Of a DNA stretch of 35,366 bases, positions 8,892 to 18,758 are shown in pieces. The notes beneath the pieces were generated by a model. That model was given only the letters and a program-made list of their open reading frames with translations, had not been told where the DNA came from and made no database searches. Made by a program: the position numbers and the translations under genes. The stretch's first letter is position 1. Every line of letters begins with the position of its first letter. The stretch comes from Bryobacterales bacterium (GTDB lineage Bacteria; Acidobacteriota; Terriglobia; Bryobacterales; Bryobacteraceae): the NCBI GenBank assembly GCA_009697505.1, contig SHUD01000024.1, forward strand, positions 1-35,366, written 5' to 3'.

Positions 8892-9158
8892 ATGTCCGTC
8901 TACGAAGATCGCAAAGACGCCCTGGAAGAGTTTGAATTCCGGATGGGTCTGGAGCGCGGCCGGCTGGCGGTCACGCTGGACTTGCTGACCGACGCCCTGG
9001 TGCTGGTGGGCCAGCACGGCGTCTATTGCCAGAGTGCGCGCCAACCCGGCAAGCCGGTGATGGACATTCAGATGATCAGCCAATGCCTGACCGGCGCCAA
9101 GGAACTGGTGGCCAGCGTCATGACGGAACTACGGGCCAAGAAATCAAAAGCCCTGTAG
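8892..9158 (+). CDS. Small hypothetical protein
   Basis: The 88-residue product from ATG 8892 (MSVYEDRKDALEEFEFRMG) follows the SBBP gene by 37 bases. The longer upstream extension of this frame begins inside the SBBP gene and is not credible. The protein is probably mostly helical (ALEEFEFRMGLERGRLAVTLDLL and a C-terminal AKELVASVMTELRAKKSKAL). It has two cysteines, no signal peptide and no membrane segment. I do not recognise a family. It overlaps the convergent MBL gene by 15 bases. A real gene is likely because its composition is even and it fills the gap, but the evidence is modest. Confidence 0.55.
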   Translation: MSVYEDRKDALEEFEFRMGLERGRLAVTLDLLTDALVLVGQHGVYCQSARQPGKPVMDIQMISQCLTGAKELVASVMTELRAKKSKAL

Positions 9159-9776
9159 GAACGGATTGCGTTCCTTCTCGCGGCCGATGGTGGTATTGGG
9201 CCCGTGTCCGGGAACCACGATGGTTTCCTCGGGCAGGGGCAGCAGCTTGTCTTCAATCGAGCGCAGAATCTGGCGCGAGTCACCCCCCGGCAGATCGGTG
9301 CGGCCAATGCTGTCGCGAAACAGCGTGTCGCCCGCGATGAGCTTGTTCTCTGAAGGAATCCAGACCGACGTGCTGCCTTGCGTGTGCCCCGGCGTGTGCA
9401 GCATGTGGAACTCCGCCGGGCCCAGCTTCAGGGTGTCGCTGTCGCGGATGGCGGTGTCGATCTCGGTCCGCGAAGGCGGTTCCACGCCCAGCCACGCGGC
9501 CTGCATGTCCATCTGATTGTAGAGTTCCCGATCGTTGGCGTTCATCAGGACCGGCGCGCCGGTGAGCGCCTTAAGCTTGGCCGCGCCTCCGATGTGATCG
9601 ATATGAGCGTGCGTGATCACGATGGCGGTGACACGCAGCGCGTGCTTTTCGAGAACCGCCACAATCTCAGCGATGTCGTCGCCGGGATCGACGACAATGG
9701 CTTCCCGCGATTGTTCATCGCCGAAGATCGAACAATTGCATTGCAGGAGACCAACAGGAAGGATTTCGTGAATCAA
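9144..9776 (-). CDS. MBL-fold metallo-hydrolase (glyoxalase II-like)
   Basis: A cytoplasmic metallo-beta-lactamase-fold hydrolase, most like small glyoxalase II/YcbL-type thioesterases. From TTG 9776 it has 210 residues and starts IHEILPVGLLQCNC, which matches the usual family N-terminus. Longer starts to 9947 lie inside the divergent ygfZ and read nothing family-like. Metal-site motifs: THAHIDHIGG (His56, His58, Asp60, His61), HTPGHTQGS, IAGDTLFRDSIGRTDLPGGD, and VVPGHGPNTTIGREKERNPF at the C-terminus. A TATAAT lies about 19 bases upstream of the TTG. The substrate is unknown. The overlap with the small plus-strand gene at 9144-9158 is convergent. Confidence 0.88.
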   Translation of the reverse strand: MIHEILPVGLLQCNCSIFGDEQSREAIVVDPGDDIAEIVAVLEKHALRVTAIVITHAHIDHIGGAAKLKALTGAPVLMNANDRELYNQMDMQAAWLGVEPPSRTEIDTAIRDSDTLKLGPAEFHMLHTPGHTQGSTSVWIPSENKLIAGDTLFRDSIGRTDLPGGDSRQILRSIEDKLLPLPEETIVVPGHGPNTTIGREKERNPFLQGF

Positions 9777-9794
9777 AAGCTGTGCCCTGGCGTC

Positions 9795-9800
9795 ATTATA
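9795..9800 (-). promoter_or_regulatory. Candidate -10 box for the MBL hydrolase gene
   Basis: On the minus strand these bases read exactly TATAAT, 18 bases before the TTG start at 9776. Transcription would begin near 9788, giving a leader of about 12 bases. No convincing -35 hexamer lies at the proper distance, so this is only a candidate. It sits in the 34-base divergent gap shared with ygfZ. Confidence 0.35.
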
Positions 9801-9810
9801 CAGTAGGGGT

Positions 9811-10764
9811 ATGGATCCAACCGGCAGCACAGGGTATTGGGGATTGCGCGACACTGCCGCGTGGATCGACCTATCGGCGCGCGGCAAGATCCGCATGACC
9901 GGCGAGGACCGCGTGCGCCTGCTGCACGCCATGACCACGCAGAACATTCAACAAATGGCGCCCGGCACCGGTGGCTATACGTTTTTCCTGAACGCGCAGG
10001 GGCGCATCCTGGGCGACGCTCATGTGTTCTGCTTCGAAGATGCGCTCCTGCTCGACACGGAGCCTGAAACGCGCGCGAAACTTTACGGGCACATCGACCG
10101 CTATATCATCGCCGACGACGTGACGCTGGAGGATGCGACGGACCGCATTGCCACCATCGCCATCGAAGGACCGGCGGCTGCCGCCGTGTTGCCGGCGCTC
10201 GGAGCGCCGCTGCCGGAACCGGAATATACAACCGCTCCCTGGAGCACGCGGACGGTCGCCCGCATAAGTTCCACCGGTGCGGGCGGATACTTTGTGTTCC
10301 TGCCCGCCGAGGAAAAGGCCGGGTTCACCGCGGCGCTCCTCGGTGCCGGTATACCCGAAGCCACGCCTGGCGACGCACGTGCTGTACGTATCGAAAACGG
10401 CCTCCCGCGTTATGGCGAGGAGATCACGGAGCGCTACCTGGTGCAGGAAACCGGGCAACTGCGGGCCGTGAATTTCGCCAAGGGCTGTTACCTGGGCCAG
10501 GAAATTGTCGAGCGCGTGCGCAGCCAGGCCCAGATTCACCGCGCACTACACCGTTTGGAAATCGAGGCAGCCACGCCTCCGGACGCCGGAGCGAAGTTGA
10601 CCAAAGGAGACGCGCCAGCCGGTGAAATCGCCAGCGCGGCGTATTCACCCGCTCTTGAAAAAGTAGTTGCGCTGGCCTATGTACGGATTCCGTTTGCCGA
10701 GCCCGGAACCGAGCTGTTGGCCGGCGGCGCCTCAGCGCGCATCGTTAGGGAACGCGCCTCTTAA
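9811..10764 (+). CDS. ygfZ: YgfZ/GcvT-like folate-binding protein
   Basis: 317 residues of the YgfZ/IBA57 family: tetrahydrofolate-binding proteins related to GcvT that support assembly or repair of certain Fe-S enzymes and tRNA modification (MiaB). The diagnostic motif KGCYLGQEIVERV begins at Lys224, with the conserved Cys226. Upstream are LSARGKIRMTGEDRVRLLHAMTTQNI (21-46) and GGYTFFLNAQGRILGDAHVF (54-73), typical of the family. A cytoplasmic protein of ordinary length. ATG 9811 follows TAGGGG. It is divergent from the MBL hydrolase. Its stop overlaps the convergent stop of the next gene by four bases. Confidence 0.92.
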   Translation: MDPTGSTGYWGLRDTAAWIDLSARGKIRMTGEDRVRLLHAMTTQNIQQMAPGTGGYTFFLNAQGRILGDAHVFCFEDALLLDTEPETRAKLYGHIDRYIIADDVTLEDATDRIATIAIEGPAAAAVLPALGAPLPEPEYTTAPWSTRTVARISSTGAGGYFVFLPAEEKAGFTAALLGAGIPEATPGDARAVRIENGLPRYGEEITERYLVQETGQLRAVNFAKGCYLGQEIVERVRSQAQIHRALHRLEIEAATPPDAGAKLTKGDAPAGEIASAAYSPALEKVVALAYVRIPFAEPGTELLAGGASARIVRERAS

Positions 10765-14192: not shown

Positions 14193-14193
14193 T

Positions 14194-14370
14194 TCACGTC
14201 GGCTTGATTACCCACTGGCTGCCACCTGAGCCGTCAGGCGTGGCGGTATCGATCTGGATCAAGGCACGCAGATGCTGCGTGACTTCTGTCTTGGGCTTCT
14301 CCCAATTGATCGCCGGAACCTGAGCCACGAGGGTGGCTGCCAGCAAGAACAATACGCCGGTTGGTTTCAT
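14194..14370 (-). pseudogene. Truncated third copy of the M20 peptidase gene (N-terminal stub)
   Basis: A 58-residue open frame from ATG 14370 to TGA 14194-14196. Residues 1-42 align without gaps to the start of the adjacent M20 peptidase, with 23 of 42 identical by my count. Shared blocks are LxAxTL.AQVPA, W.K and RAL.QIDT, covering the signal peptide and first helix. After QIDT the sequence diverges (ATPDGSGGSQWVIKPT) and stops. Everything that carries the catalytic metal site is absent. Its ATG overlaps the TGA of the upstream full-length copy (ATGA), the same coupling seen between the two complete copies. It is a remnant of a former third tandem paralogue, cut off next to the PilZ gene; a secreted peptide product is possible but unlikely to be an enzyme. 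Confidence 0.8.
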
Positions 14371-15761
14371 TTCTTCACCGCGATTTCTGTCGTCACGTTC
14401 CAGCTGAATTCCACAAACTTGTAGAGCGACGATTCACGCAGCCTCTCGACATCGCTGTGGGCGCCGTAGTTGGTGCGGTCTTCCGCCGTCATCGCGGGGC
14501 CAATCCCGTAACTCTGAATCCCCTTCGCTCGCAACTGCGCCATGTCGGTGGAACCGGTGGACATCGTCGGCAATACAACCGAGCCCGGGTACATCCGCTT
14601 GCTCACTTGTTCGAGCACGCGATACATCTCGGTATCCAGCCGCGAGGACGGCGCCACCGGGCGCGAGTTACCGGTAGCTTCAACGCGGACCGAAGGATCG
14701 CCGATCACGCGCCGCATCTCTTCAAAGAACTGGTTGGGATCCTCGTCGGGAATCGCGCGAATATCCAGCGTGGCTTCGGCCTCCGAAGGAATCACGTTCA
14801 TCCGGAAGCCGGCTTTCAGAATGGTGGGCACCACTGAGGTTCGCAGCATCGAGTAATGCCCGGGCTCGTTCTCGGCCAAGTAATCCTGGATGGCCGCGGT
14901 GCGCTGCGGGTCGAGCAAGCCGGTGTAGCGCGCGGCTTTCTCGGGCGGGCTGATGCTGGCCAGCTTCTCGAAATACGTCCGCGTGGTGTCGTTCAGGCGC
15001 ATGGGAGTCTCCCACGTGCCGACCTTCTGCACCGCAGCCGAGAGATGCACCAAGGCGTTATCCCGGCGCGGGACCGAACCATGCCCGGAAGGTCCGTTGA
15101 CCACCAGACGAACGCGGCGCGGGGTTTTCTCCGTCGTCTGAATATTGACGGAGAGCACCTTGCCGTTTTCGAGCGTCGCCCCGCCGCCTTCGGTCAAGGC
15201 GAACTCCGCGTTGATCTCATCGAAGTGTTCATCCAGCATGAAATTGACGCCCACTCCGGCGGGATCGGCTTCCTCGCCCGGCTCGGCGTAGAAAATCACG
15301 TCGCGGTCGAGCGGCGCGCCGCTCCGTTTCAGCAGCAGAAAGACCATCAGGTTGGCGGCGAGCTTGTCTTTATCGTCCACGGTTCCTCGGCCCCATACGT
15401 AACCGTCTTTGATGACCGCGCCAAATGGATCGACGGGCCATTTTTCGCGCTGCACGCCGACCACGTCGCTGTGCGCCATCAGCAGAACCGGCCGCTTGCT
15501 GCCGTTGCCCTTGAGCCGCGCGACGATATTGGCGCGGGTGGGGTCCTTGGCGAAGACCTTCGAGGGAATCCCTTCGGCGTCGAGAACTTTTTTCAGGTAC
15601 TCGACGACTTTGGTCTCGTTGCCCGGCGGCGAACTGGTGTCGATTTGAACCAGCGCACGGTAATGCCGGAGGATCTCGGCGTTCTGCTTGGCCCAATCGA
15701 CCGCCGGGACCTGGGCGGCGAGAGTCGATGCCAAGACAACAAGTAGGCTGAACTGTTTCAT
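14367..15761 (-). CDS. Secreted M20-family metallopeptidase, copy 2
   Basis: 464 residues with a Sec signal peptide (FSLLVVLASTLAAQ). An M20/M28-type zinc peptidase, dipeptidase or deacylase fold. The dinuclear metal and catalytic residues are all in place: MAHSDV (His97, Asp99), WGRGTVDDKD (Asp129), the GEE pair (Glu163/Glu164), and a C-terminal HSDVERL. NGPSGHGSVP belongs to the dimerisation/lid domain, about 220-330. It is probably a periplasmic carboxypeptidase or dipeptidase; the substrate is unknown. It is strongly similar along its whole length to the upstream copy, shares stop-start ATGA overlaps with both neighbours, and is the middle gene of a tandem array. Confidence 0.9.
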   Translation of the reverse strand: MKQFSLLVVLASTLAAQVPAVDWAKQNAEILRHYRALVQIDTSSPPGNETKVVEYLKKVLDAEGIPSKVFAKDPTRANIVARLKGNGSKRPVLLMAHSDVVGVQREKWPVDPFGAVIKDGYVWGRGTVDDKDKLAANLMVFLLLKRSGAPLDRDVIFYAEPGEEADPAGVGVNFMLDEHFDEINAEFALTEGGGATLENGKVLSVNIQTTEKTPRRVRLVVNGPSGHGSVPRRDNALVHLSAAVQKVGTWETPMRLNDTTRTYFEKLASISPPEKAARYTGLLDPQRTAAIQDYLAENEPGHYSMLRTSVVPTILKAGFRMNVIPSEAEATLDIRAIPDEDPNQFFEEMRRVIGDPSVRVEATGNSRPVAPSSRLDTEMYRVLEQVSKRMYPGSVVLPTMSTGSTDMAQLRAKGIQSYGIGPAMTAEDRTNYGAHSDVERLRESSLYKFVEFSWNVTTEIAVKK

Positions 15762-17182
15762 TTCTGAATCACTACTTTCTTCATCGCGACCTCCGCAACT
15801 GCATCCCAGGTGAACTCTACAAACTTGTACAACGAAGTCTCGGGCAGCCGCTCCACGTCGCTGTGCGGCCCGTAATTGGTCTGATCGTCCAGCGTTAGCG
15901 CCGGCCCGATGCCGTAGGACTGAACGCCTTTGGCGCGCAGCAGAGCCATGTCGGTCGCGGCCGTCATCATTCCGGGAAGAACCGCGGCGCCGGGATAGAC
16001 GCGCTTGCCGGCCTGCTCCAAAGCACGATACATATCCGTGTCCAGTCTCGACGGAGGCGCATCGGGACGCGTGAGCGGCAGCGGGACTACTTTGACGTCA
16101 GGATCACCAATCACGCGGCCCAGCTCGGCAAAGAATGCGGGCACGTCTTCATCGGGAAGCGAGCGGATATCCACGGTTGCCTCGGCCATCGACGGAATTA
16201 CGTTGGGGCCGACGCCCGCCTGCAACATAGTAGGCACCACCGATGTGTGCAACATCGAATAGTGCACGGGCTCATTCTTTGCGAGATACCGTTGGATTTC
16301 AACCGAGCGCTGCGGGTCCAGAAGACCGTTATAGCGTGCGGCTTTCTCGGGCGGGCTGATGCTGGCCAGCTTTTCGAAATAGGTCCGCGTCGTGTCATTG
16401 AGACGCATGGGCGTTTCCCACGTGCCGACTTTGCTGACAGCCGCGCTGAGATGCACAAGCGCGTTGTCCAGACGCGGGACGGAACCGTGTCCCGACGTTC
16501 CGTTCGCCACCAGACGGATGCGGCGCGGGACCTTCTCCGTGGTCGTAATCTGAACGGTGACAACGCGCCCGTTCTCAATGGTCGCGCCGGGGATGCCCTC
16601 GGTAATCGCGAACTCCGCGTCGATCGCATCGAAGTGCTGCTCCACCATGAAGCGGATACCCACGCCCGTGGTGTCGGCTTCCTCGCCGGACTCGGCCAGA
16701 AAGATGACATCGCGATCGAGCGGAACGCCGGAGCGCTTCAGCAACAGAAAGCTCATCAGCACGGCCACCAGCTTGTCCTTGTCGTCAGTGGTGCCGCGCC
16801 CCCAGATGTAGCCGTCTTGCATCACCGCGCCGAACGGGTCCACCGGCCACTTCTCGCGCTGCACGCGGACGACGTCGGTGTGCGCGAGAATCAGCAGCGG
16901 CCGCTTGCTGGCGTTGCCCTTCAGGCGAGCCACCAGGTTGGGCCGGTTGGGATCGAGAGCAAAAGTCTGCGTGGGGATGCCTTCGGCTTCGATGACCTTC
17001 TTGAGGTACTCGACGGCTTTGATTTCATTGCCCGGCGGATTGCTGGTGTCGATCTGGATCAGCGCCCGGAAATGCCGCAGGATTTCAGCTTGCTGCTTTC
17101 CCCAATCCACGGCCGGTGTCTGGGCCATGGCGAGAGAGCAGCTCAACAGACCCGGGATCAACAGTTTCAGACTGGCATTCAT
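15758..17182 (-). CDS. Secreted M20-family metallopeptidase, copy 1
   Basis: 474 residues from ATG 17182, which begins a signal peptide (NASLKLLIPGLLSCSLAMAQ). The longer open frame reaching 17548 runs into the divergent exosortase gene and is rejected. M20 metal-site motifs are intact: LAHTDVV, WGRGTTDDKDK, AESGEEAD, NGTSGHGSVP and PHSDVERLPETSLYKFVEF. The same architecture as copy 2, from which it differs mostly in the signal peptide and surface positions, so tandem duplication is clear. It is the first gene of a three-gene coupled minus-strand unit and is divergent from the exosortase gene with only 42 bases between. Confidence 0.9.
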   Translation of the reverse strand: MNASLKLLIPGLLSCSLAMAQTPAVDWGKQQAEILRHFRALIQIDTSNPPGNEIKAVEYLKKVIEAEGIPTQTFALDPNRPNLVARLKGNASKRPLLILAHTDVVRVQREKWPVDPFGAVMQDGYIWGRGTTDDKDKLVAVLMSFLLLKRSGVPLDRDVIFLAESGEEADTTGVGIRFMVEQHFDAIDAEFAITEGIPGATIENGRVVTVQITTTEKVPRRIRLVANGTSGHGSVPRLDNALVHLSAAVSKVGTWETPMRLNDTTRTYFEKLASISPPEKAARYNGLLDPQRSVEIQRYLAKNEPVHYSMLHTSVVPTMLQAGVGPNVIPSMAEATVDIRSLPDEDVPAFFAELGRVIGDPDVKVVPLPLTRPDAPPSRLDTDMYRALEQAGKRVYPGAAVLPGMMTAATDMALLRAKGVQSYGIGPALTLDDQTNYGPHSDVERLPETSLYKFVEFTWDAVAEVAMKKVVIQK

Positions 17183-17224
17183 GGGCGGCGTTCCTATTTC
17201 ATAACATATACTGGGAATGGTTTT

Positions 17225-18118
17225 ATGGCTTCGGCAGTAGACCAGCTTCCTGACCGTCCGCAAGAGACGCAGGCGCGCCAGATCCCGTGGCCGGCCTTGC
17301 TTTGGTTCGGAGTCCTTCTCGCCGCGGCGTTTTTCCCGGTTCTGAAACATTTGGTCGAGCAGTGGAACGTGGACGAGGACGTGGGTCACGGCTACTTTTT
17401 CCCGTTGGTGGCCGGGTTTATCGCCTGGCAACGGCGCGATGAACTGCTGGCGATCGAATGCAAGCCCGCGTGGTGGGGTCTGGGCGTGATGGCCTGGGCA
17501 GCGCTGCAGGGCTGGGTGGGGGCGCTGGGAGCGGAACTGTTCCTGCAACGGACCGCGTTTCTGATCGCGCTGGCCGGATTGCTTCTGGTTGTCGGTGGCA
17601 CGCGATTGGTGCTTGCGCTGGCGTTTCCCTTGCTGCTGCTGCCGTTTATGATCCCGCTGCCGGCGGTGCTCTACAACCAGATCACGTTCCCGCTACAGTT
17701 ATTCGCCAGCCAAGTGGCCGAAGTTTGCCTGGGATTGGTCGGCATTCCCGTGCTGCGCGACGGGAACGTGCTGGAGTTGGCCAGCCAGAAATTGAGCGTC
17801 GTCGAAGCGTGCAGCGACATCCGCAGCCTGCTCTCGCTGTCGTTTTTGTCGCTGGTGTAAGCCTATTTCTTCGATCAGAAGGTATGGATGCGCGGGGTAC
17901 TTTTGCTCGCGACAATCCCGGTGGCCATCATCGCCAATTCCGGCCGCGTCACGCTCACCGGCATCCTGAGCGAGATCAATACCGAATGGGCGCAGGGATT
18001 TTTCCATAGCCTGGAGGGATGGATTATCTTCGCCATCGCCTTGGTGCTATTGGGAGGCCTGCACGTGCTGATCAACCGTTTCGCCGGCAAGAACGCGGAG
18101 GAGCCGGGCGTTGTTTAA
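17225..18118 (+). pseudogene. Exosortase (archaeosortase/exosortase family) interrupted by one in-frame TAA
   Basis: A multi-pass inner-membrane cysteine transpeptidase that would sort PEP-CTERM-type proteins. Codons 1-211 carry the hallmark EACSDIRSL with catalytic Cys196. Codon 212 is TAA (17858-17860). The same frame then continues without a gap, AYFFDQKVWMRG... to TAA 18116-18118, and holds the other two catalytic residues, Arg241 in NSGRVTLTG and His261 in FFHSLEGW. Family members normally have Tyr or another aliphatic/aromatic residue where the stop stands (SLV-x-AYFF), so a single TAY to TAA change explains it. An internal ATG at 17888, behind AGAAGG, could restart a 76-residue C-terminal piece. 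It overlaps EpsI by eight bases. Activity is doubtful unless the stop is an error or the halves assemble. Confidence 0.88.
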
Positions 18119-18758
18119 ATTCCTGAATTCCCGCGCCACGCTCGCCGCCAGCGCACTGATCCTGCTGCAAGGCGCGCTGACGTATTCCGCGATCCGGCCC
18201 GAGTCCGTTCCTTCCTCCCGGCCTTTATCTCAACTGCCGGGCATGCTGGGCTCGTGGAAACTGGTGGAGGAAGGCTTGGTGGACGCGGAAACCCGAGGCA
18301 TCCTGAATGCCGATGACCTGTTGAACCGGATCTATGCCGACGGGCGCACGGGCGCCAGCTTGTTTATTGCCGCGTTCCGCTCCCAACGAGACGGCAAGGC
18401 GCCGCATTCGCCGAAGAACTGCCTGCCCGGAAACGGTTGGACGCCGATGACATCGGAGGAAATCGCCTTGGATGTGGGCGGCCCGGCGCCGATCCAGGTA
18501 AACCGTTATGTGGTGGCGCACGGTGATGAGCGGAGCCTGGTGCTGTACTGGTATCAATCGCGGAATCGCACCGTCGCCAACGAATACGCGGCCAAGTTCT
18601 GGGTGGTGGTGGACGCCCTGCGCCTGAATCGCACCGACACGGCGCTGGTGCGCGTGATCGTGCCCATTGCCAACCGCGATGAGCAGGCGGCCAACCGCGC
18701 CGCCAGCGATTTCGCGCGAGCTCTTTACGGCAGATTGCGGGAATACTTACCGGCCTAA
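18111..18758 (+). CDS. epsI: Exosortase-associated EpsI family protein (DUF3485)
   Basis: 215 residues from TTG 18111, overlapping the end of the exosortase frame. One N-terminal membrane anchor (about 8-27) is followed by a periplasmic domain. The family signature HSPKNCLPG (His99 to Gly107) followed by NGW is present, as are LGSWK near residue 47 and VLYWYQSRNR. EpsI proteins are found fused to or next to exosortases in exopolysaccharide/PEP-CTERM loci, although their chemistry is not settled. The intact state of this gene beside a broken exosortase argues that the exosortase lesion is recent or a sequence error. No PEP-CTERM substrate or exopolysaccharide gene occurs in the window. Confidence 0.88.
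   Translation: MFKFLNSRATLAASALILLQGALTYSAIRPESVPSSRPLSQLPGMLGSWKLVEEGLVDAETRGILNADDLLNRIYADGRTGASLFIAAFRSQRDGKAPHSPKNCLPGNGWTPMTSEEIALDVGGPAPIQVNRYVVAHGDERSLVLYWYQSRNRTVANEYAAKFWVVVDALRLNRTDTALVRVIVPIANRDEQAANRAASDFARALYGRLREYLPA

Follow-up and report, generated by a model that had tools for sequence, protein, structure and literature searches.

Exosortases of the EpsH family are membrane enzymes thought to cut and transfer PEP-CTERM proteins. Six residues are reported as perfectly conserved in the family, the Gly of a Cys-Xaa-Gly motif among them, according to the excerpted text of Haft et al. (2006, PMC1569441), and excerpts on the distantly related archaeosortase ArtA give Cys173, Arg214 and Arg253 as critical by mutagenesis (PMC9263693). 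The same excerpts of Haft et al. (2006, PMC1569441) list two PEP-CTERM occurrences and no EpsH for Chlorobium tepidum, and among 'Ferrovum' strains only some are described, in the excerpted source, as possessing a PEP-CTERM/exosortase system (PMC4886054). Within the titles and opening lines of abstracts of the literature on exosortase pseudogenes, we found no published report of the case described here. We found no literature that brings together at least three of exosortase, PEP-CTERM, loss of function and premature stop, and none that combines PEP-CTERM, exosortase and Acidobacteria.

We studied a window of 35,366 nucleotides, which is a whole contig (SHUD01000024.1; C59 of the genome G000) of a Bryobacterales bacterium, whose genome comprises 2.56 Mb in 87 contigs and is estimated to be 65% complete and 2.4% contaminated. 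The locus resembles that of an EpsH-family exosortase (PF09721, TIGR02602) with EpsI (TIGR02914) in showing the family on both sides of an in-frame stop, in the order of the Cys, Arg and His motifs and in having EpsI directly downstream, and it differs in that the frame is cut at codon 212 and the Gly of Cys-Xaa-Gly is changed to Asp. The top NCBIfam model by E-value, for both exosortase pieces and for EpsI, is the XrtD or VPLPA-type exosortase (TIGR04152), which has a cut-off of 400 bits; scored separately, the pieces in the window reach 131.2 and 72.2 bits and EpsI 155 bits, and in contrast to that type the EpsI of the window is a separate gene. The exosortase E/VPEID-CTERM system (TIGR04162) resembles the second exosortase locus of the genome, which stands behind a VPEID-tailed peptide, but what is seen here is just a frameshifted remnant without the Cys part. 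The degenerate system of Chlorobium tepidum, as excerpted, is similar in that few PEP-CTERM proteins are left without a working EpsH; there EpsH is absent, whereas two decaying copies are still visible in the genome of the window.

The most likely explanation, in our view, is that this EpsH-family exosortase gene has recently become a pseudogene, with a real lesion in a decaying gene. The assembled frame is cut at codon 212, and because the TAA cuts it there, the plain product lacks the Arg and the His; the invariant Gly beside the Cys is replaced.

Structure of the interrupted locus

By translation, one frame of 298 codons (17225–18118) holds a single internal TAA at codon 212 (17858–17860) and closes with its normal terminal TAA at 18116–18118, which confirms what the original prediction had read from the letters. 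Residues 1–211 match PF09721 with an E-value of 1.1e-44 and the stretch after the stop with 2.8e-15, at consecutive profile positions, and the whole frame, read through the one TAA, scores 219.9 bits (cut-off 25.7) across profile positions 2–250 of 254. Because the homology lies on either side of the stop and in one frame, a chance match is excluded. The features of the locus, with their basis in brackets, are:

17225–17857, + strand: N-terminal part of the exosortase, 211 codons, with the catalytic Cys196 at 17810–17812 (translation, PF09721)
17399–17401, + strand: codon 59, Phe; Val in 36 of 36 aligned relatives (alignment)
17816–17818, + strand: codon 198, Asp; the Gly of the Cys-Xaa-Gly motif in 36 of 36 relatives (alignment, PMC1569441 as excerpted)
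17858–17860, + strand: codon 212, in-frame TAA; Tyr in 35 of 36 relatives, Phe in 1 of 36 (translation, alignment)
17861–18118, + strand: continuation of the frame, with Asn238, Arg241 (17945–17947), His261 (18005–18007), Gly265 and the normal stop (translation, PF09721, alignment)
17888–18118, + strand: open reading frame of 76 aa from an internal ATG, with AGAAGG at 17877–17882; judged a by-product of the coding sequence
17894–17896, + strand: codon 224, Gly; Trp in 20 of 20 congeners and 28 of 36 relatives (alignment)
18111–18758, + strand: EpsI, open frame (TIGR02914, PF11984)

The start of EpsI is a mechanically chosen TTG and, if it is right, the EpsI and exosortase frames overlap by 8 bases. 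The EpsI frame is open and scores 129.5 bits against TIGR02914 (cut-off 42.8), in agreement with the earlier view that this gene is intact. An open reading frame of 537 aa with a GTG start (16247–17860), tried as one enclosing the exosortase frame, was rejected: its upstream part runs opposite a minus-strand ORF for an M20 peptidase, listed at 15758–17548 with an in-frame ATG at 17182. Genes for M20 peptidases stand in tandem, three in G002, the closest relative introduced below, and two in the window (window 14193–14364 versus L055 9874–11260), and about 1.39 kb of the M20 region of G002 has no counterpart at the corresponding place of the window.

Measured against the features that define the EpsH family, the DNA frame contains the invariant Cys196, Arg241 and His261, the same residues being found in all 36 relatives, and the Cys lies before the stop and the Arg and His after it, just as first noted. 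PEP-CTERM proteins are also present in the genome. The chain is interrupted by the TAA at codon 212, and the Gly of Cys-Xaa-Gly is lost, the window reading Cys-Ser-Asp (Asp198) where every one of the 36 relatives has Gly. Five of the six perfectly conserved residues are retained and Gly198 is the one lost, while no departure at any of the six is seen among the relatives (0/36). The active-site motif is hit independently of the stop, and Asp198 would inactivate the enzyme. A Foldseek search against solved structures gave no match at E ≤0.001, and a sequence search against them gave none up to E 1.

Comparison with relatives

Matches were obtained in 38 of 61 genomes searched, the window's own and 60 relatives, and public genome contigs contributed 16 loci. 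Of 45 loci in all, 29 from the 61-genome search and the 16 public ones, we retained 36 distinct relatives for the alignment. Of 22 further genomes that belong to the genus, 20 entered the genus alignment. Left out were G005, where the gene is split across two contigs, and G016, where it is a contig-edge fragment; the C-terminal part in G005 has ordinary residues at positions 198, 212 and 224. Judged by the exosortase protein, the closest relative is G002, with 87% identity over residues 1–211.

From the matched start, the frame is free of stops in 35 of the 36 relatives, the exception (L016, of the genome G001) having a TAG of its own elsewhere. The interruption is a disabling lesion relative to intact orthologues, which favors a pseudogene. 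The original prediction had asked for relatives to be compared at codon 212, and none of the 36 has a stop at that position, Tyr being the rule and a single Phe the exception.

The window carries private changes at four columns where all 20 congeners agree: V59F, G198D, the stop at Y212 and W224G. The earlier observation of good conservation on either side of the stop holds in that both parts match PF09721, but it overlooked G198D, W224G and V59F at columns invariant among congeners. Four of the seven private residues of the window fall on genus-invariant columns versus 23 of 235 for the 20 congeners (one-sided Fisher P value 0.0035, or 0.018 without the stop), in a test that was devised once the changes were known and whose rows share ancestry. 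In absolute numbers, the four changes of the window are not extreme: L020 and L021 have open frames and show five and four such changes, out of 25 and 34 private residues in total versus seven in the window, and that these open frames match the window in the absolute count speaks against a pseudogene. Over all 36 relatives, the window has two changes at invariant columns (V59F and G198D) and the others have from 0 to 4.

Constraint and age of the lesion

Compared with the G002 orthologue, dN/dS is 0.076 before the stop and 0.109 after it, within the range of eight neighboring genes (0.047–0.21). For most of the time that has passed since the lineages of the window and G002 parted, then, selection acted on both sides, and the lesion would be young. 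The polarized counts over the whole gene, 8 nonsynonymous to 7 synonymous changes in the window and 13 to 24 in G002, are tilted no more than weakly, which counts against a pseudogene. When we simulated unconstrained drift starting from the G002 gene, the combination of three missense changes at invariant columns and one stop was likeliest at 16 substitutions (1.8%) among the values tried. The best fit was near 1–2%, and beyond 30 substitutions (3.4%) so few lesions became unlikely, the probability of at most three missense changes and at most one stop being 0.06 at 30 substitutions. As this drift is small in comparison with the synonymous divergence of 0.44–0.85 between the genome of the window and G002 in these genes, the loss of constraint would be recent. 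The preferred reading of the original prediction, a recent nonsense mutation, is supported.

Second exosortase and PEP-CTERM substrates

It had been suggested that the strain could not process PEP-CTERM-type proteins unless a second exosortase existed. One does exist, of the XrtE type, but it is a remnant with a deletion and a frameshift, in a genome that is 65% complete. PF09721 has one further match in the genome, weak and below the cut-off (C29:9257–9391), and this is the exosortase part of an XrtE-type gene (TIGR04162) whose second part is CAAX-protease-like. At G000:C29:8965–10055 (L064 4966–6056), a short open peptide with a VPEID tail, presumably the one known as VPEID-CTERM, precedes the remnant. 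The region is collinear with G002:C15, where the frame is open and has 574 residues from stop to stop. In the remnant, about 1.03 kb is missing, removing residues 1–297 including the motif Cys, a frameshift separates residues 392 and 393, and close to the end the CAAX part has lost ten residues. The genome of the window, about a third of which is unseen, shows no full counterpart of another XrtE that G002 carries at C126. A further candidate for another XrtE, G000:C62, was rejected as a CAAX-type protein with an 84% counterpart at G002:C78. Judged by sequence, both exosortases visible in the genome are broken.

A search for PEP-CTERM tails, also proposed in the original prediction, found three tailed proteins. 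Two tails exceed the Pfam cut-off, which is exceeded in none of 14 control genomes, and three exceed that of TIGR02595, as do tails in 2 of the 14 controls. At E-values up to 0.05, three are counted here, seven in G002 and none in the controls (0/14), and the 23 genomes of the genus have between 2 and 26. Among these 23, the genome of the window has the weakest best E-value (0.0015), but in a genome of 65% completeness a shortage of tails, three compared with 2–26 in the genus, can hardly be read as a sign of loss. None of the three tails looks damaged. For one of the proteins, G002 has a 71% counterpart that ends in the same type of tail, and a second is plainly, by eye, the same protein as one in G002. 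Intact tails are expected with a recent loss, and also if some exosortase still works. The three retained tails could mean that sorting continues, and at 65% completeness an intact exosortase may be absent from the assembly; both points count against a pseudogene.

If the locus is a pseudogene, the gene would have been under normal constraint until recently, when selection was lost and a handful of changes gathered. The present-day chain would consist of 211 residues and be inactive, and the remaining PEP-CTERM proteins would stay uncut in the inner membrane, since the sole other exosortase found is also wrecked.

Alternative explanations

The original prediction had placed a base error on a par with a nonsense mutation: the TAA would then be a mistake of the assembly, through a wrong base or a consensus of mixed strains, and the gene would be intact in the organism. 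One wrong base would be enough in a frame that is otherwise open and constrained, the genome is 65% complete and in 87 contigs, and G198D, the stop and W224G fall within 27 codons, as a poorly covered patch would give. However, the other private changes at invariant columns, three in number and one of them in Cys-Xaa-Gly, would need separate errors, V59F lying 139 codons before G198D, and the second exosortase of the genome has been wrecked independently. Five neighboring genes have 52 polarized nonsynonymous changes in the window versus 51 in G002, and the other genuine window genes with a counterpart on the G002 contig have no in-frame stops. That count covers in-frame stops in 36 mechanically listed ORFs of the G002 contig, from which the exosortase itself is missing because a greedy filter retained other ORFs there. 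Of these ORFs, 27 match the window and three of the 27 show an in-frame stop: the first, to judge from its position, runs opposite the end of the exosortase, the second is antisense to a gene of the metallo-beta-lactamase fold, and the third extends two codons beyond the window gene's own stop. A second nonsense gene at 9204–9806 (+) was likewise considered and rejected, being antisense to the metallo-beta-lactamase-fold gene at 9144–9947 (–), which has its PF00753 match in the minus frame; differences from G002 in this region concentrate at the third codon position of the minus strand. Overall, we regard a base error as unlikely. Much less probable still is readthrough or recoding with the TAA read as an amino acid. 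It would fit the conserved sequence continuing in frame but leaves G198D unexplained, and since the in-frame stops of other exosortases (G001, G027 and G053) lie at other places and are TAG, no conserved recoding site is evident.

A working enzyme could also be formed by two chains, one of 211 residues with the Cys and one of 76 residues started from the ATG at 17888, a two-piece protein that the original prediction had called conceivable. The ATG is present as described behind the AGAAGG, which ends 5 bases before it and is missing from the closest relative G002; the motif residues of the second piece are retained, the EpsI downstream is open, and both pieces show purifying selection relative to G002. 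On the other hand, the first chain is damaged in its motif, Cys-Xaa-Gly reading Cys-Ser-Asp, and a stop at the position of codon 212 is seen in no relative (0/36). AGAAGG before a Met codon also occurs in two of the 36 relatives (L020 and L051), where the frame runs on. The codon at 17888 is ATG in 27 of the 36 and the AGAAGG is formed by the codons preceding it; the AGAAGG-ATG restart is not special. In an AlphaFold2 model of the G002-type protein (mean pLDDT 81.6, 15 sequences), the stop falls inside a helix of residues 197–216 that starts directly after the Cys, and the restart codon 222 falls inside a helix of residues 220–251. A restart there would omit residues 212–221, which in the model finish the first of these helices and form the turn into the second. 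With the motif Gly lost and the break predicted within a helix, a two-chain exosortase appears very improbable. The same small chance attaches to its more ambitious form, a natural two-chain enzyme in which a Cys-Ser-Asp chain and a separately started Arg/His chain would come together again in the membrane as an enzyme of changed activity or substrate range.

Consequences of a probable pseudogene

The young pseudogene that we favor looks like an ordinary case of the loss of a sorting system in a soil bacterium, with an ordinary explanation. If it is real, both visible exosortases are broken while PEP-CTERM-like sorting tails persist; such a loss in nature would point to a lineage that can do without the sorting system, and would provide a roughly dated starting point for following the decay of orphaned PEP-CTERM tails. 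For annotation, a family-level statement of "exosortase present" would be wrong for this genome.

Other interrupted exosortases

In-frame stops were also seen in exosortases elsewhere. The orthologue of G001 (L016, L038 and L058) has its TAG at a column with Tyr in the relatives L012 and L014. As G001 shows 21 PEP-CTERM matches and its exosortase lacks private changes at columns invariant in the genus, this TAG could be either very recent or an error. An orthologue in G027 (L103 540–1331), outside the set of 36 and not among the loci of the 61-genome search, has one in-frame TAG, as does a paralogue in G053 (L101 1319–2149). By comparison, EpsI showed no in-frame stop in any of the 32 relatives with a match (0/32), 4 of the 36 loci giving no EpsI match. 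Cases this few cannot support a claim that loss is commoner among exosortases than among other genes. Finally, the exosortase on the contig L043 (CALQCC020000014.1), a record titled Bordetella parapertussis, appears identical to that of G014 (L012), which belongs to the same genus as the window, and the record is probably a mislabelled bin.
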